Below, piece by piece: positions 81-60,428 of a stretch of 64,000 nt of DNA. Numbering within the stretch: position 1 is the first letter of the stretch; every line of letters starts with the position of its first letter. The position numbers were made by a program, and so were the translations under genes. Below the pieces are notes generated by a model. The model was not told the origin of the DNA. It ran no database searches and saw nothing but the letters and a program-made list of their open reading frames with translations. The DNA is taken from NCBI RefSeq assembly GCF_964355755.1, contig NC_092676.1:21806288-21870287 (forward strand), written 5' to 3'. This stretch comes from Antedon mediterranea. Its lineage: Eukaryota > Echinodermata > Crinoidea > Comatulida > Antedonidae.

Positions 81-3000
81 GAACTGGAAATAGCGTTCCG
101 CAAGGAGTCTGAGTTACCAGGAAGACGTCGCCTTCTTCTCATCGCTGCTGTAACCGGAGAAAAGTACTACACGAAGGCTTATGAAATCGATAAGGTTGCC
201 AGGTAGTAAAAATACTCTTTAAAAAAAAATTCATTATTTTCAGGTTTATTATTACTTTGACTATCAAGTGGCTAATTGTGAAGCTTTAAAGTACGCGATC
301 GTGTTGTTGAATATAGTTGAGTCACAATGTTTGTTTTGTAATGTTTTTCCCCTAAACGCAATGACATACACGCAACACAATTGATTTTACCAATAACAAC
401 AGACCATCAAAACCTGTAAATTGGATTCGTTACACGTGCGTACGTACGTCCTTGTGCTAGCGTCGCAACGGCTACTAAAGCTTGGTTCCCACTAGAACGC
501 AAGGACGTAAACGCAACGCAAGCGTTTTAACCAATGACAAGCAAAGTTATAGACAGTTAGCAATATCACAAGCGAATAAGCCATCGCTTGTGATTGGTCA
601 ATTCACTTGCGTTGCGTTAAGTCCTTGCGTTGCGTTGCTAGTGGGAACCAAACATTAAAGACGTACTTAAGACGCGTCGAAGCTTAAAAAACCGACATTT
701 ATTTAAAAAGATATTAAATATTTGCAAAGGATTGATTATAATAACAAATCTAAACACATTTTGTTAATGCAGAAAAGGTTGCTGGATATTAAGTTGCGTG
801 GTTATCTGTTTCCCATTTGAAATATATACGGTTTTTTAATAGTTAATGTGTTTCTTTTTTGTCATGGGAATTATTAGTGTAGGATGAATCTATATATAAA
901 TTTACGTAAGGGCAAAATTCGGTAAATCGCGCGTTATTTCTAGAATGTTTACTCGATGGTATATAAAATTGGTTCGTACTTTCGGTACTGATTTTAACCA
1001 CCTTATGTAACCCTGTTTACTAATTAAATTGAGTTCGATAGTTAGTTATTGACGATTAAAACGAATTTAGGTTCAACGATTTGCCCCAAATAGGGGTGTT
1101 TTCCGATCGTGGTATACACTGTCTAATGGATGTCAATTTGAAAAATACCCGCACACAATAATACGAGGACACTTCGCATTTTCCTATCTCCTCCTACGAT
1201 AATTGTTTTTAATAGCTGAAAATCGGTTGAACAGTTCGAGTACATCATCATAATGTTGAAGACAGGCCGATTTTCTTTAAAAAAATGCTATTTTGATACA
1301 TTTAATATACGTTTTTACAAATGTATTGATTTGTGATGAATGGAACATTCCAAATTATGTGGTTTAACCATAGAGGTATAGGCTTACCTCCATGGTTTAA
1401 CACAAGTAGGTAGATTTATGGGCCCTTGGGGAACGTAAATGTTTCACTAGACTGTATGTAGTGGTATATTATGTATAGGCCTATAAAACATAAAAAAATA
1501 TATTTCGTTACTGAGTGGATAAGAATATATTTAAAAATGTTTCGTCTTTGTACCTGTCTTCTTCCCCATCCCTCAACTCTTAATGTTACATACAAAACAC
1601 AAATTGGGTTTGTTTAAATGAGTCCAAATAAAAAGAAATGACTCATTTTGTGATTTTGTGACAAGTTTCTCTCTCGGAAGTAATTCCCAGGGTGCTAATT
1701 TTGGTTGACTACATAAATCATTGTGTATATTTATTCGTTTCTGTAAACGACAATGTATTATAGTCCTGCAGTACGTACATTTGAAATCTCCAGTTTTTTC
1801 TCGCTGGAATTACTGTGTATTCGAGAACCATCTGTGGGCACGACCTAGATGGTACGCGAGCGAAACGAGCGTACCATCTAGTAAATATAATTATTATTAA
1901 TTATAATAACTTTATATATTAAAATCCAGTTAACATATCATCGCTTGGCTATTAGTAACGGTACGAATATTATTCATATGTTAATAATTTATCACAGGAA
2001 TTGTTTCAAGATGCTCGTTACAATTATTCATACAAATTAAATACATTCGAGTTGGGCTGATTGAATTTCGATGAATTAAATTCACAGTTCATGCAATCCT
2101 AAATGTTAAATGTTTCTAATCAGCAAACTACAATTGCTACTATTGTTATTTTAAATATGGCTATTAATATTTATTATAACATACCTGAATAGATTATTGT
2201 CATTTGATTGGAGGATTGTAAGTCACGTGATATTCAATAGACATACTATAGAATCTCGAAGTGCAATATTCTTGTCCTCAATTATGGACAAAATGTTATA
2301 CTAGGCGATTTGCGGTAAATATATAGCTCCTCCTATTAGTTTTGATATTTTTCAAAATAATACATTTTAACTAAATCACTAAATACATATTTTCAAAACA
2401 AAAACCTTCAACAACAAAAATGCTTACAAGTAGTGAAATCGTTTCTCTCGCGATTTTTCGTATCACTATCATATCTTGCCTAGCTAGGCACAGCCCCACG
2501 TTATTATTATGATATGTGTTGTGTTATGTGTCGTTCGGTCGGTTGGTCGATAAATGCAGTCATGTATAATTATGGCCTAGTTAGTAGATAGCTTATAGGA
2601 TATAAATTAATAGGCATTTTATCTATATTTACGATAGTGATAATACAATAATGACATTAAAAATGATGAAAATAATAAAATAACCGTACTGTAGGTCAGT
2701 GCAGTAATTACCATATTTCAATCACTACTGCAGAAGAGTATTACTATTACACTTTCCATGTTAGTAAAATATTTATGTCGTCATTAAAACTTTAATGCTT
2801 AAAAAATACGTCTATCTTGATTGCTTCAAAATTATTAAATGTAACACACGAGGAAAATAATTATAACTTAGCGAAATTACCGTTAGTTAATGACAGCATT
2901 ATTAGACTGTAATTAGACAAAAAGGAAATTTGAAATCATCTTGGCCTAGTTCTGAATTTACGATCGAGAGTAATGGAATGGAAAATTAAATGCATTTTGT

Positions 3001-5388
3001 TAGTAGAAGATAAAATTGCAGCTTTTTGGATTAAGCATGGGATTATTTTCGAATTAGATATGCCAATTTTCATTTGTTTTAATTGCAAAATTGTAGTCAT
3101 TCATTATCATTGCGTCAGTTCCAACTCCACGTACAGAGCCTGCTTGCTTCTATCAGAAAGGCAAAGCAAGTATAGAGCGTCAATTTGCAGTGACAAAATG
3201 ACAGTTTAATTATCCGTTTAAATCCAAAGAATCCCAATCCAAAGAATCCCAATCCAATTATATTAGCCTAGTAGTATAAGATGAATAGCAAAGATGAATA
3301 GCAAAGTTGAATTTAAGATTATTTAAAATAAGTTTCTATGTTAAGTGTATTAATATGTAAAATTCAAATTTAATCATCTTCAAGCTAAAGTGGATCTGAG
3401 GCAATTCGAATCAGGCCATTTGTCGCTCAATGGAAGGCTTGGAAGCTATCGGTGCAAAGCCTACCAAGATCAGAACGTTGGGGACATTATTTTTCCATAT
3501 CCAGTTAAAGCAGATAGATACTACTTTTTATAATACCAAGTTATCTAACGTTAGTACAGTATACTGAATGTACACAACTTTGAGTCCTATCTGAATCAAT
3601 TGGAAATGTAACCGTTTATTGGAGATTAATATAATATTTAAAATATAAATTAGCTTCTTTAAGCCTGTTTTCCTGAACCTAATGTTTTCGTAAGGACAAA
3701 TTCACGCTTCATGCTTTTTGCAAAATGTAGAAACTACATACCTCTGCATACACTGACGTCTGCGATTTTCGCGAATATATTCGCCTAGCGGAGAACATAC
3801 TGTCAATGAAGATCCAACAATGTCAAAATATAATCCATGTTTAACGTTTAACTGGGAATTACTTAAATTATTCCAGTACGGTAAGTTAGGGTTTACTCCT
3901 ATGATTGTATATAATTATGTATTGCATTATCGAACGATTGAATGATTGATTGATTGATTATAAATTGTATAATTTATATTTTAGAGCCGTTGATTACTTG
4001 ACAGTTCGTGCGTATGATTTGAACAACCCGGATGAGCCGTACACCCAACATCATTCACCGCTTTACCCACCTCCTGGTGGTAGCAGTGAACAAGAATCAA
4101 CGGTATGGACCGTTTGTATTTACATTCATTGTATCATAACACTTTAAGTAATACATAACATGTCCTTTATTTAAAATAATTGATAGTAAAATTTGTTCTT
4201 GGTTCTTCTTTTAAAGAAGTCACCTATCGTTATCGTATATATTACAGTATAACCATATCTCTATACATTATCACTAATAATGAATGTAATTAGTTATATT
4301 ATTAGTATATTATACTTAAAATATCGACATTCATTTATTTTCAAAATAATTCGCTTTAATTTAATATTTTCAGGAGTCTGTTATAGGATTTTGGATTAAT
4401 GGAGGTGCTCTTTACTCCAAAGTCGTACTTGGTATTACTAGTTTTGCTCGAACATTCACGTTATCCGCCTATAATGAGTCATATGTTGGTGCGCCAATAA
4501 TTGGCAAGGGCACCGCAGGACCGATTGTAAATGAGCCGGGATTATTGTCGTACTATGAAGTAAGTATATTTCAAAAAAACTTTCTCTCATACTTGCTTTG
4601 CAATTTATTAGCCGGTAGGGGGCGGTCTATATCCGGTTGTGTTGCAGTACCCAAATAGAGAGAGAGTAGCTGCAAAACCCTCTCTTCTGCACAAGGTGTG
4701 CATCGTCTTGTGGCTATGTCATGCAGGAATGTGTTACGATTACATGTAAACACATTATGAAAATCATTACTTTATAACTAATTGTCAGTTAATTTTATGT
4801 TGTTTAAAATAAAATATCGGTAAATTTGTACTACCCTTTTCAGTCGAAATAGGAATATTGACTTTTAAAAGACTTTTAAAAGACTTTTTCGACCAGCGTA
4901 TTAGTCCAGACTACGGAAGTATAACATTAGATACTTCTATGTCCTGACGGTAGCTACTGAAAATCATCATTTAAAATCGTGGTTCAGCTAATGAAGGCAT
5001 TCTATTATTAATTTATTATTCTATTATACACTATTTTAGATATGTCTGCTTAACGATAGTAACATATATTTTGATGACGAGCAGGAAGCTACTTATGCAG
5101 TTTCAGAAGATCAGTGGATGTCGTTTGATGACCCCAAGAGTATTCGAAATAAGGTATACTAAGACTTTACTTACTTGGTACAATTTTAGAATCTGTAATC
5201 TGTACATCCTACATTATACTGACACTAAAGATACTGTATTATCAATGAAAACTAGGTCGAATGGGTAAAGAAGAACGGATTTGCTGGAATTGCTATTTGG
5301 TCCATGGCCTTGGATGATTTTAGTGGCAGTTCTTGCCAAGAGGGTAAATCACCTCTAATACGCACAGCAGTGGACACACTTTTAACAG
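81..5388 (+). CDS. Gene 1 exons 1-5: C-terminal part of the GH18 chitinase-like domain
   Basis: Five exons (122, 118, 186, 114 and 133 nt) encode the C-terminal two thirds of a glycoside hydrolase 18 barrel. The first begins in phase 0 with ELEIAF, followed by LLLIAAVTGEKYY. The substrate-binding strand that usually reads MTYDxxG is RAYDLNN here. The insertion domain runs over the third and fourth exons. The last exon ends the barrel with GFAGIAIWSMALDDFSG, the usual barrel-closing Trp strand. The exon with the catalytic DxxDxDxE motif lies upstream of the window, so activity of this copy cannot be judged; its paralogue is catalytically dead. The intron 203-3984 is very long and carries a MITE. 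Confidence 0.85.
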
Positions 5389-8300: not shown

Positions 8301-11300
8301 GCGAAATATTTATCGGCGCATGCGTACACTACAAGTTCATTATACACCGTTTTTGTTTTATTATCGGAACGGTATTTGGTCGAGATTTTGTTATATTTAC
8401 ACTACATTAAGTAGTAATTAGACGAATTTCTGCACTGCCAAATAGGTACTTTTTAGTCCACAATGATTTATATTTATAATGCTCTATCCAAACTTTATAG
8501 AGAATGTTGAGTCAAGATTATATTAAGTATAAACAAACGTTTTGTGTTAATTTTACCAGGGTAAGAAACCTTTAGTCTGAATTAATTTTAAAGTATGCCT
8601 TTATTGGTATTATGCTAATGAACCACATATATTATGCACATGCTGAAATTGCAACTGACTATGATACATAACATAGGCATCATGGATAGAATACAAATTT
8701 GCATTTCATAGATATTATTTTTATTTATTATTGTGATAGAGTTACAAATCAACAAATCTAAAAATGTTCCTCCTGCTCCTCCGTGTCCACCTATGTGGAG
8801 AAAATACAACGGTTCCTGCTTTTTGCTGTCAAGAACACAATTATCATGGCAAGGGGCAAGACAGTATTGCAACAAGCGAAATGCATCTTTAGCCACTATC
8901 GGTAATTCTGATGAACAAGATTGGCTGGCAGAAATATTGAAGTTAAAGGAAAATGACAACTACTGGACAGCAATTAATGATATTGTAAGTATGTATTTTT
9001 TGAATTAGTTTCCTCTCCTTTGAACCACTAAATGAAATATAAATATTACAACCAACTGGACATCCAGTTCAGACGTAAGTTTTGACTTTCGGATAATTTT
9101 ATTTATTGCATTATTTAGTTACGTATTTACGTTACATTTTAAAGGAAGAAGAAGGGGTATATAGAGGGACAGATGGTATTTCTGCTGAATACCTAAAGTG
9201 GGACATTGATCAACCGAATAATAAGGGTAAATACAATATCGTAATTCGTACCATAGATCAGTGAAAGCAATTGATGGTGCTTTTTTCAGAATTGTTTATG
9301 TACAGTGTTCTGCATTCTAAAAAATGATTATTATTTTGTGCGTAGTGATTTCAAAATCTCTAATTATTCTGAATAGTTCAACACAAACTATATTTATGAT
9401 TTTAGGAGATTGTATAACATTTACACCCATGGTAGGAGGAGTAATGCACGACAGAGATTGTGCTAAAATTCAACCATGGCTCTGTGAACAGTCAGGTATA
9501 ATATTTATTATATTATGTTGCTATATAAGCGTGTATATAGAATAGATATAGCTTTTTTTCATTATTATGTTAAGAAGGGAAGAGTTAAGAACAACTTCAT
9601 TCCCAGGAAGATGATGTTATTTTTGTGCTTGTGTTTCGGTGAAAACATTTGAAATGTGTCTTTAGACCAATATTGACAATCAATAAGTATATAAATTAAT
9701 TACATTTCAGTGTTGTATACGCGTATAAACGATGATGCAACATATATATCAACATCGAAGAACACTGCTGTGATAGTTGCTTCTACTTGTTCTGCTGTAC
9801 TAGTATTAGTAGTGATTTTCGCTGTCTTAATTGTCCTGCGACGACGACGCAGGCGATCAGTGTTAAAGTCACTACCTTACAAAAGTAATGTTCGTCCAGC
9901 GTCACGTAAGTTTTTTTTTTTGCAAATCACATGAGAAAAAATGATGTGATGACATCAAAGACGACAGTGATATAAATAAAGATAAGGACAGTGATGACAT
10001 GACGAGAAGACAATAGACGGCTGTCAGTGATAACAACAAAATGTACAGTGATGCTAACAAGGACAACAATTGTGACAATAAAGATGACGATAAAGAAAAA
10101 AATGATAACAGAGCCAAAAATGATAAAATTAAGTGACGACCGTGATGACACAAAGAAGATAGTGTTTTCAAAGACGTGAACGAGGCAACAAACGACTGAC
10201 AGTTATGAAAACAAAGACATCCAAGAAAATATGTTGATGTTTTATATAATGCTGATGGTAACTGAATACATTTTTTTGTTAAATACAGACGACTATTTAC
10301 CTCAACCAATTGTGGAACCAGCTGAAGAATTTAAGAATATGGAAATTCCACGAAATAGAATTACAACAAAGGACAGAATCGGAGGTGGTCAATTTGGCAA
10401 AGTTTTGCTGGGACATGTTGCTGGTATAGACGGCAGTGGCGAGACTATTAAAGTAGCAATTAAATGTTTACGAGGTAACTATGTCATATTGTCATTAAGT
10501 CATTTTATTTAAATACTATTAACGCGTACGCTAATTTTTTTGTAAACATGGCAAGAAGAGTGTCTAGAGCGAAATGCCACAATGGTAAAAATGTTTTTTT
10601 ATTGTTCACACAAAATAAAAATGCATACCAATCCATTGAAAAGTTTACAAAAGTATAATGTGAGAAAATAGAAGCAGAATCTTATGCACTGTTGCACCAT
10701 TGACATTTAAAAAAGTCGAAGACTTGTAGGCTATTAAGTAATAATACTTTTAGTGCTATTAGTGATATTCCACGAAACATTTTTTTGGAAATTTCTGAAA
10801 TTCTTCATTCCAGTTTTTTCCAGTAATCTAACGTCTATACCGTCCCCGTCACCAGTATAAGACCGTACTTTCAGTGTTTAATAATATGTATTACTAATAA
10901 TACCATTTGTGTTGTAGATCACACATCGAATAAAGAGGACTTTTTGGACGAAATTAGGTTGTTAATCGAACTAGGAAAGCATAAAAACATCATATCTTTG
11001 GTGGGATGTGTTACAATAAGTCAGCCAAACATGGCACTGTTTGAGTTCATGCAGTATGGAGACCTACTACAATTTCTGCGCAAAGCTCGTCAGGTTAGAA
11101 AGCACGAAGTGTTCGATGTAGGCATATGGTCAAGGATTAACGATATTAAATCAACTACTGTCCTATCAGTTAGATGGTAATTCCTCTTACACAAGAGCTA
11201 TTTTGTGAACCAGTAACACCAGTTAGTTTAGTTGTTACCGGTAGGTTTTAAAATGTATATTGAGTAAAACGGCTATTATTGTTCTACAGGTCAAAGAGGG

Positions 11301-14024: not shown

Positions 14025-16983
14025 ATGTTGAAGGATTTTAGTATGCGTGGCATTGTGATTATGGTAATAGTTTCACTAGTGTTTGAGAATGTGGTAACTT
14101 CAGAAGAAAAAAGAAGTAAGTAAAAATTTGGTAATTAATCCGAATAAAAATTTTACAAAATAATAGTAGACTACTCATCTCAATAAATACTATAACCACG
14201 ATTGTGTATTTTTTAGTAAAAGTAGGAACAAATATACTTTCGGAAGGTTTACGTAAAAAGTGTCACGTCACGACTAAATTACTAAAAGAGCATTTTAATG
14301 AATTGTTTTCCATTTTCAGTTTATAACGACCATGTATCCATGTGTTACGTAATATCATGGGCACAGTATAGAGCTGGAATCGGAGCTTTTACTGTGGATA
14401 ACATCGATCCAACGCTTTGCACACACGTGATCTACGCCTTTGCAACTATTGACGATGACATGCACTTAGCAGCCTTGGAATGGAACGACTTGTCCAAAAC
14501 ATGGTTAGTCGGAAACTATGAGAGACTACATCAGCTTAAAAACATAAATCCGGATCTACAAATAATACTTAGTGTCGGTGGATTTTCATTCGGAACTGAA
14601 CCATTTACAATGATGACGTCTAATGTAGAGGTGCGAGCTGAGTTTATCCGACATGCAGTGACTTTTCTGAGGGCCAACACATTTGATGGATTACAGATTG
14701 ATTGGCAGTATCCTACTTTTGGTACTAGTCCACCGGAAGATCGCCAAAGATACACATTTCTGCTTCAGGCATGTTAGAGTCACATCTCATCTATGACTCT
14801 AAACACAGAGTTTCACATTTTTACTCTAGTTGTGTATCACATTCTTAAAGAGTATTAACAAAGTATAATCTGATTCAAAACATAATTACCGTACTTCCAC
14901 AATCCAACCTACACCAACGTTGGTGCAAATTGGTTTTTAGGATATTGTAGGTTGGTTTTGTGGATGTTGCTTATAGGCCTATTGTTAATTTTCTGTTGTA
15001 ATTGTTTCTCTTCTTGTTCTTTTTTTGTATATGATTTTTATATGGTTGTACTATCCGAAATAAAGAAATGAATGAATAGATTATACAAAAAATACCAATG
15101 CTTTTCATATCACTGGGTTCTCATGTCAACTATATCAGATCTATCCGTCGGACACCGAAAATGGTCATACTGTATGTCACTTCCTATCCCGTCAAAAAAG
15201 TAAACAGTTTTCATTGTGTTTGTCTAGTTTGTAAAGTGTTTTTATTTGTAATTTCAGGAACTTAAAGAAGCATTTCGTGAAGAGTCTGAACAACTAGAAA
15301 GAAAGCAGCTTATTCTTATTGCGGCAGTTGCTGGAGACAAGTACTATGAAAAGGCATATGAGATTGATAAAGTTTCAAGGTAAACAGAGTAGAGCTTTAA
15401 ATCGCATTTTCCATAACTTCTTATAAGGAGTTGCTGAACAATTTACTGTGTGGTCTTGTGTCTAAATCATTGCTACTGTTCAAGATATGAATAATTATAA
15501 AATCTTATGCTAATATTTTGCAATACATGTAAATCAATTATAAATCAAGTAATGTTATGCGGGATACCTTTGGTAATCATAGAAAAACTCATTTTGCATA
15601 GGATTTTCAATCAATAGCTTAGTCGATGGTGACATCTTACTATCAAAATAAAATTATTGATAATTCGTATTTCCAGGGCTGTAGACTATTTAACCGTACG
15701 TGCGTTTTACCTATATGATCCAGACGAACGAATAACTATACTTCACACACCACTTTATTCTAATCCGGGAGATTTGGACCACCATGAATCTACGGTATTT
15801 ATTTTATTCGTTCGTTCGTTTGTTCAATCTAATATTTCAGAATATCTGGTCTGTGGAAAATAACTTAATTACGTGTAAATTAGAAAATAAACTTTACTGA
15901 CTGATTATGATGATGAATATAATAGGTAAAAATGTTGTACCAATATATATACCTTAAGAATAAAATCATTTGCTTAAGCTATTTTATTCTTTATAATTAT
16001 TATTTAAAGGAATCCGTAGTTGGATTGTGGACGAATGGAGGAGCAAGTTACTCTAAAATTGTTGTTAGTGTATCAACATTTGCCGTAACGTTTACTCTAT
16101 TGGACTCAACCGAATCCTACATCGGTGCGCCAACAATTGGTGATGGCAAACCTGGACCATACGTCAACCAACCTGGGTTATTGGCGTATTATGAGGTATT
16201 TTGGACATTGATTGTAAAAATGTGTTTATTTTTTAAAGCCATTGTTCACGCTTTCATAATATATCATGAAATGTACCTCTGTTTAGACCTCTGCAAACTT
16301 TAAACGTATTATAATGTTTACAACTGCTCACACTATGCAAAAAGGAAAAGGAAGAAGAAAAAGAAGTCATGGTTGTTTACGTTTGAAATATCTACAATAA
16401 ATAACAATCAGCTCAGCAGTCATCAACGTCAGACATGATACCAGAAGAGGAAGAAGAAGGCCTAGTAAAAACATAAATGTCTATAAGATGTTGTAAAGAT
16501 ATTCTAACATAGACTTCACCTCTTTATCTCTAGGCATGTCCATTTGTCAACAACTACGACATTTATTTTGATGAAGAACAGGTTGCATTTTATGCAGTTT
16601 TGGAAGATCAATGGATATCATTTGATCACTTTAGAAGTATCGAATTAAAGGTAAAAATTGTTCAAAATGAATTACAACATTGTTTATGTTCACTTGATTA
16701 TTGTGGTACCGTGCGGTATTATCTTATAGGGAAAGTAGTACAGTAATACATATCACTGTAGTTGACAACTTTCAACCGGGCACTAATAATAAATAAAACA
16801 CGTTCTCGGATGCCTTAAACATGTACTCATTATTATTGCTCTTTTTTAAGATGGATTGGGTGAAACAAAATGGATTTGCTGGTGTTGCTATCTGGTCGAT
16901 GCCTATGGATGATTTTAATGGCACGGCTTGTCTTGAAGGAAGAAATCCTCTGCTGAATGCTATAGTTGATAACTTGAGGACAG
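14025..16983 (+). CDS. Gene 2 exons 1-7: signal peptide and inactive GH18 domain
   Basis: Exon 1 gives MLKDFSMRGIVIMVIVSLVF, a typical signal peptide ending near residue 26. The GH18 barrel then starts with CYVISWAQYRAG, keeps ILSVGGFSFGTEPF and ends with GFAGVAIWSMPMDDFNG. The catalytic motif (canonical DGxDxDWE) reads DGLQIDWQ at residues 153-160 (14685-14708): the second Asp is Gln and the proton-donor Glu is Gln. By established GH18 chemistry this cannot hydrolyse chitin, as in chi-lectins such as Ym1, but sugar binding may remain. The MTYD strand is also altered (RAFYLYD). The intron after 14768 has a GC donor (CAG|GCATGT); the downstream exon and phase fit it. Confidence 0.92.
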
Positions 16984-19900
16984 GTAAGACTTTCAACTTT
17001 GTTCACCACTGTGTCATCTTAACTATCTAAAGAAAACAACGTTTTAGGGCTCCTTTAAGCTGTCAACTGTCTATTCTTGAACCAACCACAGATGAGGAGA
17101 TCGAGAAATTGATCAAGGCATCCCCGATAAAGTCTTGTGAGCTAGATTCTATTCCAACTTGGCTTTTAAGGGATTGCGCTCCTGTAATAGTTCCAGTGCT
17201 AATGAAATTAGTTAATCTTTCACTTATCACATCCACAGTACCACAGAATTTAAAGAAAGCACATGTACGGCCTTTGCTGAAGAAGACTGGCCTCAACCCA
17301 GAAGTTCTTAAAAATTATAGACCGGTTTCAAATTTATCCTTTGTTTCGAAGCTTATTGAGCGTGTTGTTGCAGTTAGACTCTCTAAGCATATGTCAAATC
17401 ACAACCTCCATGAAACTTACCAATCAGCATACAAAGCTAACCACAGTGTTGAGACAGCGCCTCTACGTGTTCAGAATGACGTTTTGACATCAATAGATAA
17501 TCAAGAACTTGTTATTCTAGTTTTACTAGACTTATCGGCTGTTTTTGACACAGTAGATCACTCACTGCTTCTTCATAGATTGTCACATGATATTGGGGTA
17601 AGAGATCAAGCATTGTCTTGGTTCACATCATATCTAAGGAACAGAACCCAGGCCGTCTGCATTGGTGATGTTTCATCAGATGACCTTCCTCTATTATGTG
17701 GCGTCCCACAAGGTTCGGTGCTTGGACCACAGCTGTTTTCCATCTATGTTGCACCAGTTGCTGAAATAATACGAAGACACGGATTATGTCATCATTTCTA
17801 TGCAGATGATATACAAATCTACGTTTCTGTCAAGCCTTGCCAGACCAAGTTTCTGTCCGCCGTAAAACGGTTAGAAACATGCACTGCTGAGATTAGAAAA
17901 TGGATGGGCTCCAACTTCCTCAAGCTAAATGATAAAAAGACCGAGGTGATCCTATTTGGTTCTGTTCAGCAGAGAAAAAAGATCCGGTTTGATGGCCTAC
18001 ATATTGGTGGCGTACTAGTCAATCCATCATCAGAAGTTCGTAACCTTGGTGTACAACTTGATTGTAAAATGACCATGGAATCACATATCAACAAAATCTG
18101 CCGATCTGCTATTTTCCATTTATGTAACATCGCCAAGATCAGACGTTACATGAACTTGCTTGGTGATGTGTGCCAAGAAGTATGATCACGTCACACCATT
18201 GTTCAAAGAGTTAAATTGGCTACCCATGGAGTCACGTATTCAATTTAAGATCCTGCTGCTGGTGTTCCGATGCCTAAATAGTTGCGCTCCAAAATATCTC
18301 TCAGAATTGTTGACAGTCAAGAAGGGAAAGCTAAGATCTAGTCATCAGGTGCTACTGGACATTTCAAGGAGCAAACATAGTTGGGGAGATCGGACTTTCA
18401 GTGTTGCTGGACCTAGGCTCTGGAACCACCTACCCTTGAACATTAAACACACATCATTATTGAGTCACTTTAAGTCACTACTCAAAACTCACCTTTTCTG
18501 ATTTTTTTTTACAGCGCCATGAGCAATGAATGTTGGAATGGCGCTATATAAATTGAACGATTGATTGATTGATTGTGTAATTTCTTTTTTTTTTTGTAAC
18601 AAGCGGATCTTGACAATTTACATCAAATCACAGGTTACATTTTTATTGAATATCATTGCAAGAGTAGAGAAGCCAGCTGAGGTGGGGAAGTAGGAGGCCA
18701 TGCCCACTTCCCTTTACCCACATCGTCGAAGAATGTGACCTCTTCATCAAGGAAGACTTGACACTTGTGTTCATTGTTTATTCGACACAATCTTCAAGCC
18801 ACTTTTGCTCCTTTTTTAACCGTAGGGCAAAACTCGCAAATTGAGTAACATTGGCTAATTCAACACATAAATGAATTCCCGTGTCTTACATAAAAGATAG
18901 CTAACATTTTTTTAAATTATTTTTGATAATCAGATTCTGAATAATAAATGTTCTGTATTTTAGGTTCATTGGCATTAGTAAACGGTTTTTCTAGCCGAGA
19001 AGGACTTCTTACAATGTGGCAAAATGGAACATGGAGATATATCTGTGATGATCACTGGACTCAAGACGATGCAAATATTGCATGTAGGCAACTTGGATAT
19101 CAAGGATCAATTCCTCTTAATGAAGTCCCAATCTTTGAACGGTTAGAAGGCCTGTATTACCCTGTAATTGTTGGTAAAATAAACTGCGAACCCAGTGGGC
19201 AAAAATTGGTTGAATTAACGTTAATTCAACGTTATCTGCAAACGTTGAAATAACGTTGAAAAAGTGGTTGAAAATGAAAGTTTGCCTCAACGTAAATGTC
19301 AACGTTGAATCAACATAGAAATTATCAACGTTGAAACAACGTTAAAATAAGTAACGTTGAAATAACGTTGAAAAAATGGTTGAAAATGAAAGTTTGCCTC
19401 AACGTAAATGTCAACGTTGAATCAACATAGAAATTATCAACGTTGAAACAACGTTAAAATAGGTAACGTTGAAATAACGTTGAAAAAATGGTTGAAAATG
19501 AAAGTTTGCCTCAACGTAAATGTCAACGTTGAATCAACATAGAAATTATCAACGTTGAAACAACGTTAAAATAGGTAACGTTGAAATAACGTTGAAAAAA
19601 TGGTTGAAAATGAAAGTTTGCCTCAACGTAAATGTCAACGTTGAATCAACATAGAAATTATCAACGTTGAAACAACGTTAAAATAGGTAACGTTGAAATA
19701 ACGTTGAAAAAATGGTTGAAAATGAAAGTTTGCCTCAACGTAAATGTCAACGTTGAATCAACATAGAAATTATCAACGTTGAAACAACGTTAAAATAAGT
19801 AACGTTGAAATAACGTTAAAAAAAAATGGTTGAAAATGAAAGTTTGCCTCAACAAAAATGTCAACGTTGATTCAACATAGATTATCAACGTTGAAACAAT

Positions 19901-22900
19901 GTAAAAATGTCTACGTTGAAATTATCAATGTTGATTCAATGTTGAAATTATTAACGTTGAAACAACGTAAATATTAAGTTGAAATGAAAATTTGCATCAA
20001 TGTAAATTTAAACATAGATTTAACGTTGAAATTTGATTTGTTGAATTACTATATCCAATTTGAATCAACGGTTTTAAAGTAGTTAGTAGTAAAGTTACTG
20101 TTACGTCGCAGAATCCATCAATAGAGACATTTTATAAATACTGTATATCTTACTCTTTAATTTCTATAAAAACATAAAATAACATTTAATCAGGTGTTAT
20201 CAAATCATCAGGCAAAATCCAAACAACAATCAAATAATGTACAGTACATCCTCACTGACAGTTCTCAGGTACCAGTGTTAAGTATAAAAAATATACTAAT
20301 AACCAGTTTGTAATATGTTTGCCAACTAACATGATTGAATAACTATAAATATTGGCTGATTACAGTAAAACACAATAAATACAACACACGTCACAGGTGC
20401 CTTGTGCTAATGTTGCAGAAGTCCAAATGATGGCAATAACACAATACTGTAATTGCATTGTTCCGATTAGTCAATAAACAGTTGCCTCGATTCCTGTGTT
20501 GACATTGTCCTATGCTTTCCAAAAGTGTGGCAATATTATTTTTCCAAACCTGAAACAAATTCAATCAAGTTACTGTAGTTTTAAACAAAAATAATACAGT
20601 AAAAAATTAATTGTTGAAAGATTTATTGTCCCCAAAAAACATGAACAATGAAGATTAATACAATCATACTTTGAATACCTTGCCATTTTGCAATTTTAAC
20701 AATTTAGATATTCACTTGCCGTAGAAAATAAACAAAAACAATAAAGATTTCACTTAACAAAAATACAAAATAAACAGTACATTTAACCAAAAACCAATTG
20801 TTTGTTTAAATTGTCCCCCTTTTAAGGTACAAATGCATTTTTAAAAATCTAATTTTTGGTCAAACTGAACAACTCTATAGTGACGGCATATTCAACAAAA
20901 CATTTAAAAAAAAATTGTTCAGTTCAATTATATCTTTAACACATTGTTCAAAAATCATACTGTACATAAACAAAAATTCAATTCAGAACATCATTTCACA
21001 CTTACACGTAAAATATGCAATCAATTCAATTTATGTAAATAATATTGCAACACTGTATTAATATTTACGCCATGGTTAGGATTCCGGCACCGAAACTCAA
21101 CTGCCCAGCGTTAGGGAATCCGACACACTATTGCGCATGCCCAGAGCAAGGTAATCGGCGACTCTATTTTTGTCTACAACAGACCAAAGCGTGGTTCCCA
21201 CTAGCGACGCAACACAAGGACGTAACGCAACGCAAGTAAATTGACCAATCACAAGCGATGGCTTATTCGCTTGTGATTGCTAACTGTCTATAACTTCGCT
21301 TGTCATTGGTTAAAACGCTTGCGTTGCGTTTACGTCCTTGCGTTACGTTCTAGTGGGAACCAAGCTTTACAGCGATGGATCATTTTAATAGCTGCGCCAC
21401 GGCGAACTAGCCGGCCTACATGCCTACTAATACTAGTAGGCCTACAAGCTAGATGTGACCATTGGGCCTATTTATTTCGTAATTAAATTTGCTGCTTCAT
21501 TCATATATAAACTTTATATATTTATGAATTATAATTGCATGACTAGTTTTAATTTTTATGATTTTTCAAGTACAAAATAAAAGATTTCATATAACGCATT
21601 TATACTGTACATAACATCATTTGATTTGAAGTTGATTTGTTGACAGCAGCCGCCGTGCGGATGTGAAAAAAAAAAACAGAACTGTTCGGGAGAAGTCGGT
21701 GTCGCAACGCTACGCTATTCATTTTCGTACATTTCTTGAAATACGCAAGCTGATTCTTATCGATATCATAATAATTATTTTAACGCGTGGCGTAATTAAT
21801 TCATGTATGGCCTAGGCCAAGTTTCATCCATCGCTCTCTTCCCCGCGCGACGACTAACTAGGCCACAGCAAAGATATCTTTGGCTACACAGTACATCCCT
21901 AGTTAACACTCCGACTCTCGGGTAATGTGGTGCGCGGTCTGTGGCACTATTGCAAGCTATAACAAAGAACTTATAACACAAGAATCTCCTGTTCGTCCGA
22001 AGCGCGTAACAATTTCGAAAGGCATTGTGGGATAGAATAGAGCTATGGGTGGCGCCATATTGGGATCCATGGAGTAGGGCGCCCGCATCAAATTAGAAAG
22101 TCAAAATCATAGAGGGGATCTGCTAATGCTCTAGGGGGGATAGAGTAATTGACTGAGGAGTAGGGCGCCTGCATCAAATTAGAAAGTCAAAATCATAGAG
22201 GGGATCTGGTCTGCTAATACTCTAGAGGGGTAGAGTAATTGACTTCCTAGTTTGGAGGGGGCGCTGCTCCATGCTGTGAAATGGCGTCGCCCAGTTTGAC
22301 CTTTTAACCCTGTACTTCCGATACTGTGTTTTGAATGCAAATTGAAGAACAGGAGATTCTTGTGTTATAAGTTCTTTGGCTATAATTACTTCGCTCTGGG
22401 CATGCGCAATAGCGTGTCGGATTCCCTAACGATGGGAAGTTGAGTTGCGGTGCCGGAATCCTAATCACGGCGTAATATTTATTCAATTCAATATTAAAGT
22501 TAAGAACTATAAATACCAACCTTTTGTATATAAAAATATTGATCATCCATTAGATTTTTCTCGTTTGATTCACATAGAAAAGATTATAGGCCTACATGTA
22601 CTTCATTATTTTGTACTCTAGCTAGGCATAGGCCTAAGGGCCTTATTAGCTAGGCCTACAATCTGAAATAAAGAAAGCGAGTAAGTTTAACAAATAGCCG
22701 TCCTAGGCTAGCAGCATGTGTTTTAGCAGCTACTGTAGACAGCCTAGCAGAAAGCTAGCTAGGCCAACTAATTATATATTATAATGTTATATTTATGTAT
22801 ACTTTTGGATAAATAAAGAAAGTATTGAACTAAAAGGCATAATAGTACATACCATTTTATAACCATAATAAGTACAGTACTGTAGTTATCCTTGGCAAGG

Positions 22901-25900
22901 CAAATGTTTGCCCTTGACATGCATAATACCATAGAGATATTATAGTAATATCTCTATGATAATACTAAATGCTTCCACTAGGCCTAGTGAGTGAATTCAG
23001 TTCATCAGTTTGGCAGCCTGCCTAGCCTATTAGCCTAGCCTACCACACCAAGCTAATAATAGCCTAGGCCTAGCTAGCTATGCATGTGTGGCCTACTAGA
23101 CTAGAGGCTAGCTATTGACAATATTGATAAGGGTAAAATAGTCGAGCTCAAAGCTTATAAATTAGTAGATTACAAATAAAAAAGATTGTTTTCCTACCTC
23201 AAAACATACTTATTTGACAATTTCAATGATGAGCCTTTTTTTTCTACACACCACTGTAATAACTGTAGGCCTAGCCTACGTCGAAGTAACTGAAATTACT
23301 GACACCAGTTTCAAAATTTTATCAAAACGAAACTAACCAATGACAAGCTCGTATCTTATGAAATTTGATCTTGCAAAGGATCATTCAATTTTCAACACAA
23401 CTTCTAGAACATTTTTGTATTATACAGAGACAATAATATTTGCCAATCTAAAATTCCTAAATAACCAATAATCATTTGTTTTACAATAAAGGATGATAAA
23501 ATAAACCGCCAACTGAAATCTAATGTTAATTTAACGTTGAAACATCAATGGCAACGCACTTAAACACATATTATTTAATATTAAACGTTAAAAACATGTC
23601 ATTTAATTAAGTATTAAATAGAATTTATCTTTAATTTAACGTTTAATATTAACATTGAAAAACAAAAATAATAATTGTTTGAAAAAACAACATAATTTCA
23701 AGAGTTTTTCAACGTTGAAAACATGTCATTTGAAAATGACAACTGGATTTCAACGTTAAAATAACATTGGAATAACATTGAAAAACAAAAATAATAACTG
23801 TTTGAAAAAAAATACTAGTTAGAAATACAATGTTATTTCAACGTTGGATCAACATTGATAAATTAACGTAAATTACTAGTTAGAAATACAATGTTATTTC
23901 AACGTTGGATCAACATTAATAAATTAACGTAAATTACTAGTTAGAAAGACAATGTTATTTCAACGTTGGATCAACATTGATAAATTAACGTAAATTTCTA
24001 GTTAAAAATACAATGTTATTGCAACGTTGGATCAACATTGATAAATTAACGTAAATTACTAGTTAAAAATACAATGTTATTTCAACGTTGGATCAACATT
24101 GATAAATTAACGTAAATTTCTAGTTAAAAATACTATGTGATTTTAACGTTGGATCAACATTGATAAATTAACGTAAGTTTCTAGTTAAAAATACTATGTG
24201 ATTTTAACGTTGGATCAACATTTATAAATTAACGTAAATTACTAGTTAGAAAGACAATGTTATTTCAACGTTTGATCAACAATGATAAATTAACTTAAAT
24301 TACTAGTTAAAAAGACAATGTTATTTCAACGTTGGATTAACATTAATAAATTAACGTAAATTTCTAGTTAAAAATACAATGTTATTTCAACGTTGGATCA
24401 ACATTAATAAATTAACGTAAATTTCTAGTTAAAAATACATTGTTATTTCAACGTTGGATCAACATTGATAAATTAACGTAAATTACTAGTTAAAAATACA
24501 ATGTGATTTCAACGTTGGATCAACATTGATAAATTAACGTAAATTACTAGTTAAAAATACAATGTTATTTCAACGTTGGATCAACATTGATAAATTAACG
24601 TAAATTTCGAGTTAAAAATACAATGTGATTTTAACGTTGGATCAACATTGATAAATTAAGGTAAATTACTAGTTAGAAAGACAATGTTATTTCAACGTTG
24701 GATCAACATTGATAAATTAACGTAAATTACTAGTTAGAAAGACAATGTTATTTCAACGTTGGATCAACATTGATAAATTAACTTAAATTACTAGTTAGAA
24801 AGACAATGTTAATTCAACGTTGGATCAACATTGATAATAAAACGAAAACTTCTAGTTAGAAATACAATGTTATTTCAACGTTGGATCAACATTGATAAAT
24901 TAACGTAAATTTCTAGTTAGAAAGACAATGTTATTTCAACGTTAAATCAACATTGATAAATTAACGTAAATTACTAGTTAGAAAGACAATGTTATTTCAA
25001 CGTTGGATCAACATTGATAATAAAACGTAAATTTCTAGTTAGAAATACAATGTTATTTCAACGTTGGATCAACATTGATAAATTAACGTAAATTTCTAGT
25101 TAAAAATACAATGTTATTTCAACGTTGGATCAACATTGACAAATTAACGTAAATTACTAGTTAGAAAGACAATGTTATTTCAACGTTAAATCAACATTGA
25201 TAAATTAACGTAAATTACTAGTTAGAAGGACAATGTTATTTTAACGTTGGATCAACATTGATAAATTAACGTAAATTTCTAGTTAAAAATACAATGTTAT
25301 CTCAATGTTGAATCAACATTTATAAATTAACGTAAAACATTTGTTTGAAAAACAATGTTATTTCAACGTTGGATCAACATTGATAAATTAACGTAAAACA
25401 TTTGTTAGAAAGACAATGTTATTTCAACGTTAAATCAACATTTATTAATTAACATAAATTACTAGTTTAAAAGAAAATGTTATTTCAACGTTGATTCAAT
25501 GTTTATTACTAAACGTTAAAAAAATAGTTAGGGAAAAAATGTTATTTCAACGTTGATTCAACGTTTGAAATACGCTGACAACATGATTTCAACAAATCAA
25601 CTATATTTCAACGTTGATTCAACGTTGAAATTATGTTCTGTGCCCACTGGGAAGGCACAGAGAGGAGACTTGCGGAGTGCGCATGGGCAGAATCGACTAC
25701 TCAAAATTGTCAACCGGTTTCTTTATTGTGCAACAGTAAGTTAGTATTCTACACATGTCTTTAATTCACCATTTCTATATACGTCTTTTTCTAAGATTTT
25801 ATAAATACATTATATTCACATTATTTTGTAAGCGTTTGGAATGTAGATAAAAGGTAGGCCTATTTGGTCTAATGACACGATGTTACACAGTAGGCCTAAA

Positions 25901-28900
25901 ATGAACATGTACTGTAGATACGTAACTCAGACTAATGGACTATCTTAGCTACATGATGAGTGAATTTGTAGATGCGATGACAAAAAACTTATTAGTTCAT
26001 GTGATTACTATTTGTCCATAGGTTCTACTATGCACAAGGTCTCAAACAAAAAGAATGTCACGGGCTTGAGTAAGACCCTTATTGCTGCTGTTACAGCTAC
26101 TTTGTGTTCAGTTACTGTAGTTTTAGTTGCATTCCTGTATGTAATTGTGAAGAGGCGAACAATTAACAAAGACGGTATTGCAAATGTGACATTGCCACCA
26201 CCGAATAGTGTCAAACTAACAACTGTAAATTCTGGTTAGTAACATGACGTCATGATTCGGAATATTGTAAATCACATTCTCTGCCTATTAATATATCCTG
26301 CTGTTTTTAATTGGTCAGATAATCATGTTTGTCATACACTGACGTATATTTTTGTTTTGCTAATTACATTTTGAGATTAATTATAATATTATATGTAATA
26401 TTAATATTATTCTATAACAGTCTATGATAATTCTATTGAACCATCTGAACACGAGTTTAAAAACTACGAAATTCCAAGGAACCGAATTGTTGTGCAGTCA
26501 AAAGTTGGCAGAGGTGAGTTCGGTAAAGTGATGATGGGACACGTGATTGGTCTGGATGGAAGTGATGAGATGACAGTAGCCATTAAAAGTCTTAGAGGTA
26601 AGCATGCATTTGACATGTAAGTAAACCCACCTGTATTATAATTATGGTTTCCAAGTTGACTCTTGAATTATATTATCTGAAAATGAATATATTCACAAAA
26701 ATAAATGCCTTACGATTGGTTCCCACTTTGAAGAAACGACATGAGCACAACCAAGTGAGTTGACCAATCACACGCGACAATCCGGATGATCAATCGCGTC
26801 GTGATTCGTCAAATTACTCTGACATGGTTTTGCTGCTACGTTCTAATGGCAAACGAGCTTTATAGTGTATTTCTATTCACAAACCACAGTTACTAAATAA
26901 CCGACTACTTGTTCAAACTGGTTAAATGTAAGTGTAATGTGTTTTTTATATTGTAGTTGGTTAGTTGGATACTTTTATTTTGTTCTGCTATATTTTTATT
27001 GAAGATTATTTGATAAATTATACAGATAATTGTGATCGTAAAGATGACATGCTGGATGAGATTAGGTTGTTGATTGAACTTGGAAAACATCAAAATATCA
27101 TCAAACTAGTTGGATGTGTTACAACTTCTCAACCATATTTGGCTCTGTTTGATTTCATGAAGTATGGGAATTTACTGGAGTTTCTTCGCATGGCTCGCCA
27201 GAAGATATGTTATTATGTTATTACTTTCAAAAGAAGTACTACTTTTGTATGTACTTGTTGTTCAAAATGTTGTTGTACAACTCTTCTTGTGCAAATCTTG
27301 TTGTACAACTCTTATTGTACGATAACCTAATGTTTGGCAAATACTTATCAAGAGAAAAATCTATGTTTATGTATTGGTAAAGTAACAAAAGCTTATTAAA
27401 GGTTATACGTCGTGTCTTGAAAGTAGAATACCTTAATTTCGTTCAGTTTATGAGCCCTTAAATTGATTGTTCTTACACTGTCGTCATACGTATCATTGTT
27501 TAATAATCTGTATAATACTGTTTGGTCATTGTGTGTGTAGGTCAGAGATGGGGCTAAACTAGAAGACCAAATATATGATCTGTCTCTTGTCGATCAGTTA
27601 AACATGTCAAGGCAGATAGCAAACGGAATGGTAATCATGAAATTTTTTTAATATAATATTGATTATTGAAAGTATTATTTACTTTAAAACTATACCCATT
27701 TTTAGAACTGTTGTAAATAAAATAAGGTTCAGTGAGTGAAGAAAAAATGGTTTGCTATCATTACCTACGCAATCATCAACACATTATATTTTTTTAAAAA
27801 TTCCCATTATTATCATTCTATCTGTGTTCCATATTTCTTTTTAAAAATAGTGATTTTCACAGCTATAGGTTCCAACACATGCTATGCTGCTTGGAAGATA
27901 ATACATAAAAAGAAAATCTGCTGAAATTATTGGTTACAGATTTGCTATATATTTAAAAAATTATTATTTCCAAAGTGAAATACAATATCACGTTTTCTAA
28001 AACTTTTCAATTTAATTTTTATTGAAAACAAATGTTTGTTTGTGTTTAGCTGTTTGTATCTTCTTTGAGGTATTACCATGGTGATTTAGCAGCAAGGAAT
28101 GTCCTTGTTGGTGAAAACTTGACAATGAAGATTTGTGATTTTGGTTTAGCCGCTGATATATACCAAACGGGATACAATCGCATGACACCGGAGCAAAAGC
28201 GGCCAATCAAATGGTCCAGCTTAGAAACTTTATTAGAAGGAGTGTGTACAATTAAAAGTGATGTGTAAGTAAATAACACAACATTCTTTAGCAAATTCAT
28301 TGTAAAGTAAGTTTATGTGCATGCATAATAAGTGAGAGTTTCGTGAGGTGGTTTCCCGAATGATCGTAAAATCAAAACGGTACTGTGTATGACCAACTAG
28401 CGTTATTGTCACCGACTAGTCATCCATTCATAGAAGTACTGATGTAGTAGCCTACCTGTACGGTGACCATAGAATGTGACCTGAGGCATGACTAACTTTG
28501 ACTTTTAGTTGATAGAAGATTGAAAAAATTGTTAAGAAGAGTTGTACTGTATGTGGATGTTTAATGAAATTATGTCAAAAATTTTTACACACTATATGCA
28601 TATAAATAGTAATGTTTGTTAGTAAAAATAATTTTGAGTTAATAAGAATAAGATATAAGGAAGAAAAGCAAAGAGACTATAGAGCGGCTATTCCTGAATA
28701 TACAATATACTAAGTATCGTAGATTTAAATTATACATTTTAGGCGATCTTGTCAAAGGTCATGCGCCATATAGCCTGCTACGTTTCGATATTCAATATTG
28801 ATTATTAATTATTATTACAGTATTATTATTAATAATACTATTATCATACAATACTTGTGCAATGATAATAGAAAATGTTGACTTGTATCTTTAAAAATCT

Positions 28901-29915
28901 TAATTATTTATGTATTATTTATACAGCGAAAAGTGGGTGTGTAATACAAATAACATAAAAAAATACTAAAAAATAGAACAAAATAAATTTTATTTACATT
29001 TATTCTAGAACAGGGTTGATTATTTTGTATTTGTAAACTTGTTTCAATCGATTAATCATTCATTTACATTTTCTGCAGGTGGTCATACGGAGTTGTTCTT
29101 TACGAAGTGTTTACACTTGGCGCTGTTCCTTATCCACGTATTGATACAGAGACACTTCTTAATAACCTGAAGGCAGGAAAACGACTACCAAAACCAGAAC
29201 ACTGTCTTGAAGAAGTGTAAGTTCTTTCAGTTTATCGTTATTTTTATTCTAAAAGAAGAACCTTTAAATGTACTTTCAAATATAAGTTTCAATTAGTTTG
29301 AACGCTCTGTCCCTAAATCTAAGATAGTATCAACAATCTCAGTTAGTTACTAAAGGGTTTGCTACTGCAATAAGTAAAGTACTAATAATTCAAAATTACT
29401 ATTTCATAAGAATATCCGCTTCCTCTCTTCAATGACTTGTTTCTGTTGTGCCTTGTTTTTTTCCTTTCTATTTAAAGGTGGTGCAACATATCTTCTCTAT
29501 CCATTTGCTATATTTATTTCTTTTTAATTTTATTTATTTTTAATAAAAAAAAATTAAGATGAATTGTGTAAAAAGTGGAAGTTGCAACACTTTAAATGAA
29601 ATATTTGTATGTAGGCCTAAACAATGTTAGCCCAAAATTTGATGATTTTTTCGTTAAACTATTGAAATAATACATAAATCATTTAGTCGTTTTAGTCATG
29701 TAGAAACATGTCGAGTGCATTTCTTCAGAAACTCTTTTGTATTTTTCAGCTACCGACTTATGCTTCGATGCTGGTTGAAAAATCCAATTGAGCGTCCAAA
29801 CTTCGATAACATAGTTGAAGAATTTACTGAATTTTTGGAAAAACATAGCAATTCGCAGTATATAGAGCCTGTTTCTATAGAATATGAAAATCTTTCATCT
29901 CATAGAAAAAAATAA
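14025..29915 (+). CDS. Gene 2: GH18-SRCR receptor tyrosine kinase, interrupted by a transposon
   Basis: Fifteen exons: 14025-14115, 14320-14768, 15258-15379, 15677-15794, 16010-16195, 16534-16650, 16851-16983, 18964-19190 plus 25654-25735 (one SRCR exon split by an insertion), 26022-26234, 26421-26597, 27026-27201 (or to 27246), 27541-27630, 28050-28264, 29079-29216 and 29750-29915. The product is about 899 aa (914 with the longer exon) once the insertion is left out. The start ATG at 14025 opens a signal peptide. The order is GH18, one SRCR, transmembrane helix, non-RD tyrosine kinase. Most exon lengths equal those of gene 1 (122, 118, 186, 133, 309, 90, 215, 138), so the genes are tandem duplicates. 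It lacks the second SRCR and both lectin domains. Whether this allele makes protein depends on how the 6.46-kb insertion is handled. Confidence 0.85.
14880..15090 (+). repeat. Fold-back segment and possible LINE-like tail in a gene 2 intron
   Basis: TCCACAATCCAACCTACA near 14897 is followed after a short loop by its near complement (TGTAGGTTGGTTTTGTGGA, ending near 14965). The stretch then runs to AATAAAGAAATGAATGAATAG, a tail of the kind left by non-LTR elements. The family is not recognised. Confidence 0.35.
17046..18575 (+). mobile_element. 5'-truncated non-LTR (CR1/L2-type) retrotransposon
   Basis: A reverse transcriptase segment occupies 17058-18185 in one frame: KNYRPVSNLSF, then a palm motif with Asp altered in context (VLLDLSAVFDTVDH), GVPQGSVLGP, and the catalytic FYADD. 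A second piece in another frame (18160-18501) carries the usual C-terminal part (YDHVTPLFKELNWLP ... AGPRLWNHLP). The stretch that normally links them is missing, so an internal deletion has fused them out of frame. The 3' end has GCGCTATATAAATTGAACGA and then (TTGA)n/(ATTG)n repeats, typical of CR1/L2-like tails. The endonuclease half is absent. It lies in the intron before the SRCR exon of gene 2 in the same orientation and is dead. Confidence 0.85.
18964..25735 (+). CDS. Gene 2 SRCR exon, split by a 6.46-kb insertion
   Basis: The 5' part 18964-19190 encodes the first part of an SRCR domain (YICDDHW, IACRQLGYQGS, up to INCE). The 3' part 25654-25735 continues with GTERRLAECAW, QNCQP and LLCN. 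Joined without the insertion and one copy of the AA duplication they give 309 nt, exactly the length of the gene 1 SRCR1 exon, with all six cysteines. The flanking phases (1-1) are intact and neither half shows stops or frameshifts. The insertion is therefore recent, polymorphic, or tolerated. Confidence 0.9.
19235..19990. repeat. 112-bp tandem repeat (left satellite array)
   Basis: GTAACGTTGAAATAACG recurs at 19351, 19463, 19575 and 19687, an exact 112-bp period, with about five near-identical copies before the array decays after 19850. The high identity implies recent amplification or homogenisation. Confidence 0.9.
21067..22473. mobile_element. Nested 1.4-kb TIR element
   Basis: The left end (ACGCCATGGTTAGGATTCCG...) and right end (...CGGAATCCTAATCACGGCGT) are inverted repeats of about 85 bp that include GCGCATGCCCAGAG / CTCTGGGCATGCGC. 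AATATTT (21060-21066 and 22474-22480) is duplicated at the borders, a 7-bp candidate target duplication. Inside are a TGGTTCCCAC-family MITE, a tandem pair of about 85 bp (near 22075 and 22160, GGAGTAGGGCGCC...), and a second inverted pair (near 21963 and 22346, with CAAGAATCTCCTGTTC). No transposase is seen. It lies within the larger element, giving three levels of nesting. Confidence 0.75.
21192..21362. mobile_element. MITE, TGGTTCCCAC family, copy 2
   Basis: This near-full copy of the family lies in inverted orientation relative to copy 1: TGGTTCCCACTAGCGACGCA at the left and TTCTAGTGGGAACCA at the right. It is nested inside the 1.4-kb element. Confidence 0.85.
23815..25560. repeat. 61-bp tandem repeat (right satellite array)
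   Basis: About 28 copies of a 61-bp unit share TACTAGTTAGAAA, ACAATGTTATTTCAACG, TTGGATCAACATTG and ATAAATTAACGTAAAT. The period is exact over most of the array. Edge copies at the right are more diverged, the usual pattern for unequal exchange. It shares the TTCAACGTTG word with the left array in opposite orientation. Confidence 0.92.
26022..26234 (+). CDS. Gene 2 transmembrane exon
   Basis: This phase 1-1 exon of 213 nt encodes a short stalk with one NVT N-glycosylation sequon, a single hydrophobic helix (about LIAAVTATLCSVTVVLVAFL then YVIV) and a basic KRR stop-transfer, followed by a juxtamembrane stretch. It follows the SRCR exon directly, so this receptor lacks the lectin modules of gene 1. 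Confidence 0.88.
26421..29915 (+). CDS. Gene 2 non-RD tyrosine kinase domain and C-tail
   Basis: The motifs match gene 1: Gly loop GRGEFGKV, VAIK, DEIRLLIELGKHQNI, hinge FDFMKYGNLLEF, catalytic loop HGDLAARNVL (HGD at 28077-28085), DFGLA, KWSSLETL in place of the APE stretch, WSYGVVLYEVFTLGAVPYP and CWLKNPIERP. The same HRD-to-HGD change in both copies shows it is ancestral to the pair, not an error. The C-tail ends with YIEP and YENL; YENL fits the pYxNx consensus for a Grb2-type SH2 domain. Exon 27026-27201 ends CAG but is followed by AAGATA, so its donor is lost. The next in-frame donor (TTT|GTATGT at 27247) would add 15 residues in the kinase-insert position. Confidence 0.9.
26717..26853. 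mobile_element. Decayed TGGTTCCCAC-type MITE
   Basis: Starts TGGTTCCCACTTTGAAGAAACG and keeps the internal TTGACCAATCACACGCGAC and GTGATTCGTCAA words of the family, but the right end is degraded (TTCTAATGGCAAACGAGC). It lies in a kinase-region intron of gene 2. Confidence 0.6.
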
Positions 29916-38020: not shown

Positions 38021-44318
<6,298 letters not shown>

Positions 44319-60381: not shown

Positions 60382-60428
60382 CTACCGGTATTTAAAAAAA
60401 AAAAAATTATATATATAATATGTAATAT

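Follow-up and report, generated by a model that had tools for sequence, protein, structure and literature searches.

The stretch of DNA analysed here, the window (64,000 nucleotides with a G+C content of 32%; G000:C7:21806288-21870287), belongs to the 354 Mb genome of the crinoid Antedon mediterranea (∼353.5 Mb in eleven contigs of 22–41 Mb each, in keeping with n = 11 in feather stars, the next contig, C12, comprising 0.57 Mb) and carries two neighbouring genes, designated copy 1 and copy 2. A comparison of all open segments between the left and the right half of the region revealed co-linear homologous exons, that is, six for a GH18 domain, one for an SRCR domain and six for a kinase, and exon borders were set manually on the basis of open frames, AG/GT sites and phases. 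An earlier note on this DNA had proposed that GH18, SRCR and, in one gene, C-type lectin domains are joined to a membrane helix and a tyrosine kinase; exons for these modules indeed follow one another in that order along the + strand of each copy, with C-type lectin domains in copy 1 only. The region given for the pair, positions 81–29915, holds copy 2 and copy 1 from its third coding exon onwards; copy 1 starts further to the left, at −2279, so that its first two coding exons are located in a segment reaching ∼2.3 kb beyond the window (locus L001).

Copy 1 comprises 22 exons encoding 1,291 residues, arranged as signal peptide, GH18 domain, two SRCR domains, two C-type lectin domains, one membrane helix and tyrosine kinase (Table 1). 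Every intron is bounded by GT-AG, the phases are consistent, and neither stops nor frameshifts nor non-canonical sites occur in the 22 exons. The Pfam E-values are 4.9e-74 for GH18 (residues 32–374), 2.9e-33 for SRCR (two stretches), 4.9e-32 for Lectin_C (two stretches) and 3.7e-80 for the kinase (residues 965–1233). Judged from its sequence, copy 1 is the intact gene of the pair.

Table 1. Exons of the two receptor genes, inserted elements and related kinase loci. Positions refer to the window unless a contig is given.
Feature	Position	Strand	Remarks
Copy 1 signal-peptide exon MHLKILIIFTALMFSNVSMIEESR	-2279..-2207 (C7:21804008-21804080)	+	73 nt
Copy 1 first GH18 exon (N-terminal third)	-1772..-1324 (C7:21804515-21804963)	+	
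Copy 1 third coding exon (GH18)	81..202	+	phase 0/2, GT-AG; coordinate 81 is the acceptor
Copy 1 GH18 exons	3985-4102, 4374-4559, 5040-5153, 5256-5388	+	phases 2/0, 0/0, 0/0, 0/1
Copy 1 SRCR 1, SRCR 2	5672-5980, 6594-6896	+	one exon each, phase 1-1; Pfam
Copy 1 C-type lectin 1	7255-7460, 7834-7915, 8103-8213	+	Pfam Lectin_C; EPN and WVD
Copy 1 C-type lectin 2	8740-8984, 9145-9226, 9406-9495	+	Pfam Lectin_C, second stretch
Copy 1 membrane helix TAVIVASTCSAVLVLVVIFAVLIVL	9711..9905	+	followed by RRRRRR stop-transfer
Copy 1 kinase exons	10289-10474, 10918-11093, 11290-11379, 11486-11700, 11839-11976, 12659-12908	+	Pfam
Copy 1 stop codon	12909-12911	+	
Copy 2 signal-peptide exon MRGIVIMVIVSLVFENVVTSEEKR	14043..14115	+	73 nt, phase-1 donor
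Copy 2 GH18 exons	14320-14768 (GC donor), 15258-15379, 15677-15794, 16010-16195, 16534-16650, 16851-16983	+	Pfam
LINE-like reverse transcriptase ORFs	17031..18498	+	in the GH18-SRCR intron of copy 2
Copy 2 SRCR exon, left part	18964..19190	+	Pfam SRCR E 2.8e-10, model positions 2-50
Mobile element, 6.5 kb	19191..25653	+	inverted ends CCCAGTGGGCA / TGCCCACTGGG, minisatellite arrays; splits copy 2 SRCR exon
Copy 2 SRCR exon, right part	25654..25735	+	57% identity with end of copy 1 SRCR 1; phase-1 donor GTAAGT
Copy 2 membrane helix exon TLIAAVTATLCSVTVVLVAFLYVIVKRR	26022..26234	+	
Copy 2 kinase exons	26421-26597, 27005-27216, 27541-27630, 28050-28264, 29079-29216, 29750-29915	+	Pfam
Copy 2 stop codon	29913-29915	+	
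HGDLAARN kinase paralogs	C11:9.14, 9.17, 1.16, 0.10, 16.56; C3:37.24, 7.73; C4:3.71, 8.57, 23.63; C2:35.89 Mb		L004-L014, L024-L034

Copy 2 encodes a signal peptide, a GH18 domain (Pfam E 2.6e-69), one SRCR domain (2.8e-10, for its first half), a membrane helix and a kinase (7.7e-79), and Pfam detects no C-type lectin domain in it. Its SRCR exon is split by a mobile element. More than 30 further places in the genome contain the first 99 nt of this element without a single mismatch, which points to a recent insertion, and since a recently mobile element interrupts the exon, copy 2 may be damaged in the assembly. A loss of function is nonetheless not certain, because an in-frame splice over the element (donor after 19194, acceptor before 25661) is possible. 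Apart from the insert all reading frames are unbroken; two donors are non-ideal, namely the GC donor at 14768 after the first GH18 exon and a weak kinase donor at 27216. Until a short time ago copy 2 was probably an intact gene; unless the element is spliced out, its SRCR exon is now disrupted. As a separate observation, the ends of the element could supply splice sites in copy 2 and thereby give rise to a new intron. Of the LINE-like frames in the preceding intron, the one at 17031–18182 matches RVT_1 in Pfam (E 4.2e-32).

It is very probable, as far as the splice architecture tells, that GH18 and kinase belong to a single transcription unit. The lengths of the signal-peptide and GH18 exons (73, 449, 122, 118, 186, 114/117 and 133 nt) match between the copies and their phases are identical, just as the earlier note had asserted for exon lengths and splice phases; for example, exon 81–202 of copy 1 is equal in length to exon 15258–15379 of copy 2. 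A scan of the whole + strand (73 kb) for an ATG with hydrophobic core and phase-1 donor yielded seven matches at the stricter setting, and N-terminal signal peptides are recognized by hydropathy in both copies (MHLKILIIFTALMFSNVSM in copy 1, MRGIVIMVIVSLVFENVVT in copy 2). The signal-peptide exon precedes the first GH18 exon by 434 bp in copy 1 and by 204 bp in copy 2, which anchors the start of each gene ahead of its GH18 domain. At the other end of that domain, the last GH18 exon has a phase-1 donor in both genes (CAG/GTATGG and CAG/GTAAGA), and the SRCR exon has a phase-1 acceptor.

Two adjacent genes, i.e., one for a secreted chitinase-like protein followed by one for an SRCR/lectin receptor tyrosine kinase, might be suspected since (i) read-through of the last GH18 exon encounters a stop shortly past the donor, (ii) two AATAAA/ATTAAA words are located inside the GH18-SRCR intron of copy 1, and (iii) in copy 2, directly before the SRCR exon, an in-frame ATG (18948) might conceivably serve as the start of a shorter form devoid of GH18. 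However, the phase-1 donor is kept in both copies whereas the positions of the read-through stops differ, A+T-rich hexamers are common in many introns of a locus with 32% G+C, and copy 1 has no ATG corresponding to that of copy 2. Moreover, the intron in copy 1 spans 283 bp, which is too little for the promoter, start and signal peptide required at a gene border, and the scan found no comparable signal-peptide exon in it. Two separate genes thus appear quite improbable, and the claim that the modules form one gene rather than a chance juxtaposition is strongly supported at the level of the genome by the conserved signal-peptide exon, the phase-1 donor and the short intron. Still less probable is that both genes are decaying pseudogenes: the element in the SRCR exon, the GC donor and the weak kinase donor of copy 2 would fit such decay, but copy 1 is free of defects in all its exons, the frames of copy 2 are unbroken outside the insert, and dN is far smaller than dS in both domains compared. 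Between the copies, the GH18 domains share 64% amino acid identity with dN 0.25 and dS 2.7 (rough values, dS being near saturation), and the kinases share 66% with dN 0.25 and dS 1.1 (likewise rough as measures of selection); the large excess of dS over dN indicates purifying selection on GH18 and kinase.

What the GH18 domain does is constrained by its active-site residues. Its nearest solved relative in the PDB is human chitotriosidase (E 1.6e-92), itself an active enzyme, so that an active chitinase tethered to the membrane and bearing a kinase tail might be envisaged. Yet the DGLDLDWEYP segment of chitotriosidase reads DGLQVDWTYP in copy 1 and DGLQIDWQYP in copy 2: the proton-donor Glu of the DxxDxDxE motif that marks active GH18 chitinases is replaced by Thr or Gln, respectively, and the Asp that comes first in the motif after DG is Gln in both. 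Catalysis is hence predicted to be lost in both copies, and a working chitinase is the most improbable of all the readings considered here. A GH18 fold with the catalytic Glu replaced is what characterizes chi-lectins, and binding would be the simplest reason for conserving a domain deprived of catalysis. The substrate-lining Trp residues of chitotriosidase are partly kept, namely the one on the first strand and the one before LDD, while the Trp of GGW is Tyr in copy 1 and Phe in copy 2. Since only some of the Trp residues of the cleft are retained, something other than chitin itself may be the ligand. One could then also imagine a single fused gene in which GH18 merely serves as a spacer or protein-protein surface, its fold being retained for stability or dimerisation, with the ligand being a protein or being bound by the SRCR and lectin domains. 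The loss of the catalytic Glu and Asp and the changes at several substrate-lining residues would be compatible with such a role, SRCR domains are known for protein-protein interaction and ligand binding (PMC10855680), and the first lectin domain of copy 1 retains its EPN motif. The GH18 domain is, however, nearly as conserved as the kinase, suggesting that it has some function by itself, and we regard the spacer role as unlikely, though deserving of far more weight than an active enzyme.

Among the GH18 loci found genome-wide, only the pair in the window adjoins a kinase match, the others being located far from any. Two candidates for further members were rejected: the GH18 gene at C7:22.22 Mb encodes an ordinary chitinase that is secreted and carries a Thr-rich linker together with peritrophin-like repeats, no kinase being found for it, and the one at C1:16.12 Mb encodes an ordinary chitinase with five CBM_14 domains; DGLDLDWE is kept in both, and both possess chitin-binding tails. 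At G000:C1:1479288-1492096, about six GH18 units that are almost identical follow one another in tandem at intervals of ∼2.2 kb.

In both copies the kinase exhibits the motifs GGGQFGKV, VAIK, the αC Glu (DEIRLL), HGDLAARN and DFG, and it is of the tyrosine type by its Pfam family (PF07714), its AARN motif and its P+1 region. A single membrane helix with basic residues on the inner side separates ectodomain and kinase. In the PDB (phmmer), the kinase matches mostly FLT3, FGFR, VEGFR, CSF1R and RET (E ∼1e-57 to 1e-59), with the EGFR-labelled entry 9p9u ranking first. A search of the Antedon genome itself yielded further kinase loci with 45–72% identity in the catalytic-loop exon; HGDLAARN is present in all eleven paralogs read, and a twelfth, more distant locus has HRDLAARN, the usual form. 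The existence of these further HGDLAARN loci places the pair within a local family of receptor tyrosine kinases (RTKs) with about a dozen paralogs. No GH18 domain is found within 10 kb upstream of the eleven. At one of them (L006), 15 LDLa repeats are located upstream on the same strand (Pfam E 5e-112), and weak Pfam matches to Ig-like (L008) and MAM (L012) domains lie near two others, all three being at most candidate ectodomains of these kinases; FN3, LDL-YWTD and TSP1 ectodomains discerned by eye in paralogs were discarded, Pfam support being absent or weak. Swapping of ectodomains within one RTK family is possible.

On balance, we consider it probable, with some reserve, that the tandem pair encodes a non-enzymatic, chi-lectin-like glycan receptor tyrosine kinase made by exon shuffling. 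As read from its sequence, the protein is a single-pass receptor with an intact kinase, and from this architecture we infer all of the mechanism beyond. Exon shuffling would have joined GH18, SRCR (and, in copy 1, C-type lectin), helix and intact tyrosine kinase. The GH18 domain, lacking its catalytic acid, would act as a chi-lectin, binding chito-oligosaccharides or else a glycan or glycoprotein related to them, and the SRCR and lectin domains might raise avidity or co-recognize glycans of microbial or self origin. Once clustered by a multivalent ligand, the receptors would trans-phosphorylate each other through their kinases, and the resulting phosphotyrosines would recruit SH2 adaptors.

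A precedent for such an architecture is found in plants, where tobacco CHRK1 has a GH18 ectodomain devoid of the catalytic Glu and of chitinase activity (PMC10573068); 91 plant GH18-kinase sequences have been noted, for which enzymatic activity was assumed (PMC5485988). The proteins of CHRK1 type share with copies 1 and 2 the extracellular GH18 domain, the single membrane helix and the cytoplasmic kinase, but unlike the Antedon genes they possess neither SRCR nor C-type lectin domains. Plant receptor-like kinases are of the Ser/Thr type, and since the kinase here is of the tyrosine type, the Antedon receptors may work like CHRK1 without being members of that group; their origin would then be independent of the plant GH18 receptor kinases, that is, convergent. 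The earlier suggestion of a CHRK1-like glycan sensor is strengthened by the absence of the catalytic Glu from both copies, a residue that CHRK1 lacks as well, and is weakened with regard to chitin by the incomplete set of cleft Trp residues. The chi-lectins CHI3L1 (YKL-40), CHI3L2 and YM1 likewise combine the GH18 fold with loss of the catalytic Glu, and the PDB matches of the Antedon domain include CHI3L1 and CHI3L2 (E ∼1e-79 to 1e-76); these proteins are, however, soluble and secreted, having neither membrane helix nor kinase. The loss of Glu looks independent of theirs because chitotriosidase scores best and the substitutions (Thr/Gln) differ.

Among RTKs, structures of the FPVR group (FGFR/PDGFR/VEGFR/RET) mostly score best with the Antedon kinase domain in phmmer, behind the EGFR-labelled entry, so that the pair may group with them. 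Members of this group differ in having an Ig or cadherin ectodomain, neither of which Pfam finds in copy 1 or copy 2, and HRD in place of the HGD of the Antedon pair, whose dozen or so local paralogs form a separate expanded family. Venus kinase receptors, which are invertebrate RTKs, have likewise recruited a small-ligand-binding domain ahead of the kinase (PMC4026697), but combine a Venus-flytrap ectodomain with an insulin-receptor-like kinase. In the expanded SRCR genes of the sea urchin each SRCR domain is encoded by one exon (PMC10855680), as is the case for the phase 1-1 SRCR exons of copy 1; the main text of that paper mentions neither tyrosine kinase nor chitinase partners. The Antedon genome contains 408 candidate SRCR exons, and the 150 that were scored are all strong, many of them being arranged in tandem clusters (e.g., at C1:13.9 Mb, C7:4.3 Mb and C6:30.5 Mb).

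The statement that no animal RTK with a GH18 ectodomain has been described agrees with our search of the full-text literature for GH18 or chitinase together with receptor tyrosine kinase, which returned no animal GH18 receptor kinase, the matches inspected being unrelated or from plants; as this search covered papers and not animal protein databases, its null result argues only weakly for absence. The GH18-RTK pair is real, well-built and, as far as this search reached, undescribed in animals. Animals make and digest chitin, and to our knowledge no dedicated transmembrane chitin-receptor kinase has been established in them. A chitinase-derived RTK would represent a concrete candidate for such a receptor, with a ligand that can be tested. 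It suggests the conversion of an ancient sugar-digesting enzyme into a sensor, a change that plants made independently, and would constitute a clean case of convergence in which an enzyme is recruited as ectodomain, catalysis is lost and binding is kept. The pair may also point to an RTK family that swaps ectodomains in this lineage. It is then tempting, if rather tentative, to speculate that these are the first animal RTKs to sense chitin-type glycans by means of a converted chitinase, having arisen independently of plants, but likewise in two steps, GH18-kinase fusion and loss of the catalytic Glu, from a kinase family that has been joined to many ectodomains.

Three other features were observed in the window. 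Long open frames on both strands at 57801–59503 represent a short tandem repeat (minisatellite) and not a gene. A Cupin_8/JmjC gene resembling JMJD7 is located on the − strand at 38680–41901 (Pfam 2.6e-18). At 50933–60527, also on the − strand, a gene has a C-terminal exon encoding a TFR_dimer domain (4.8e-15) and resembles, by eye, glutamate carboxypeptidase II / NAALADase.
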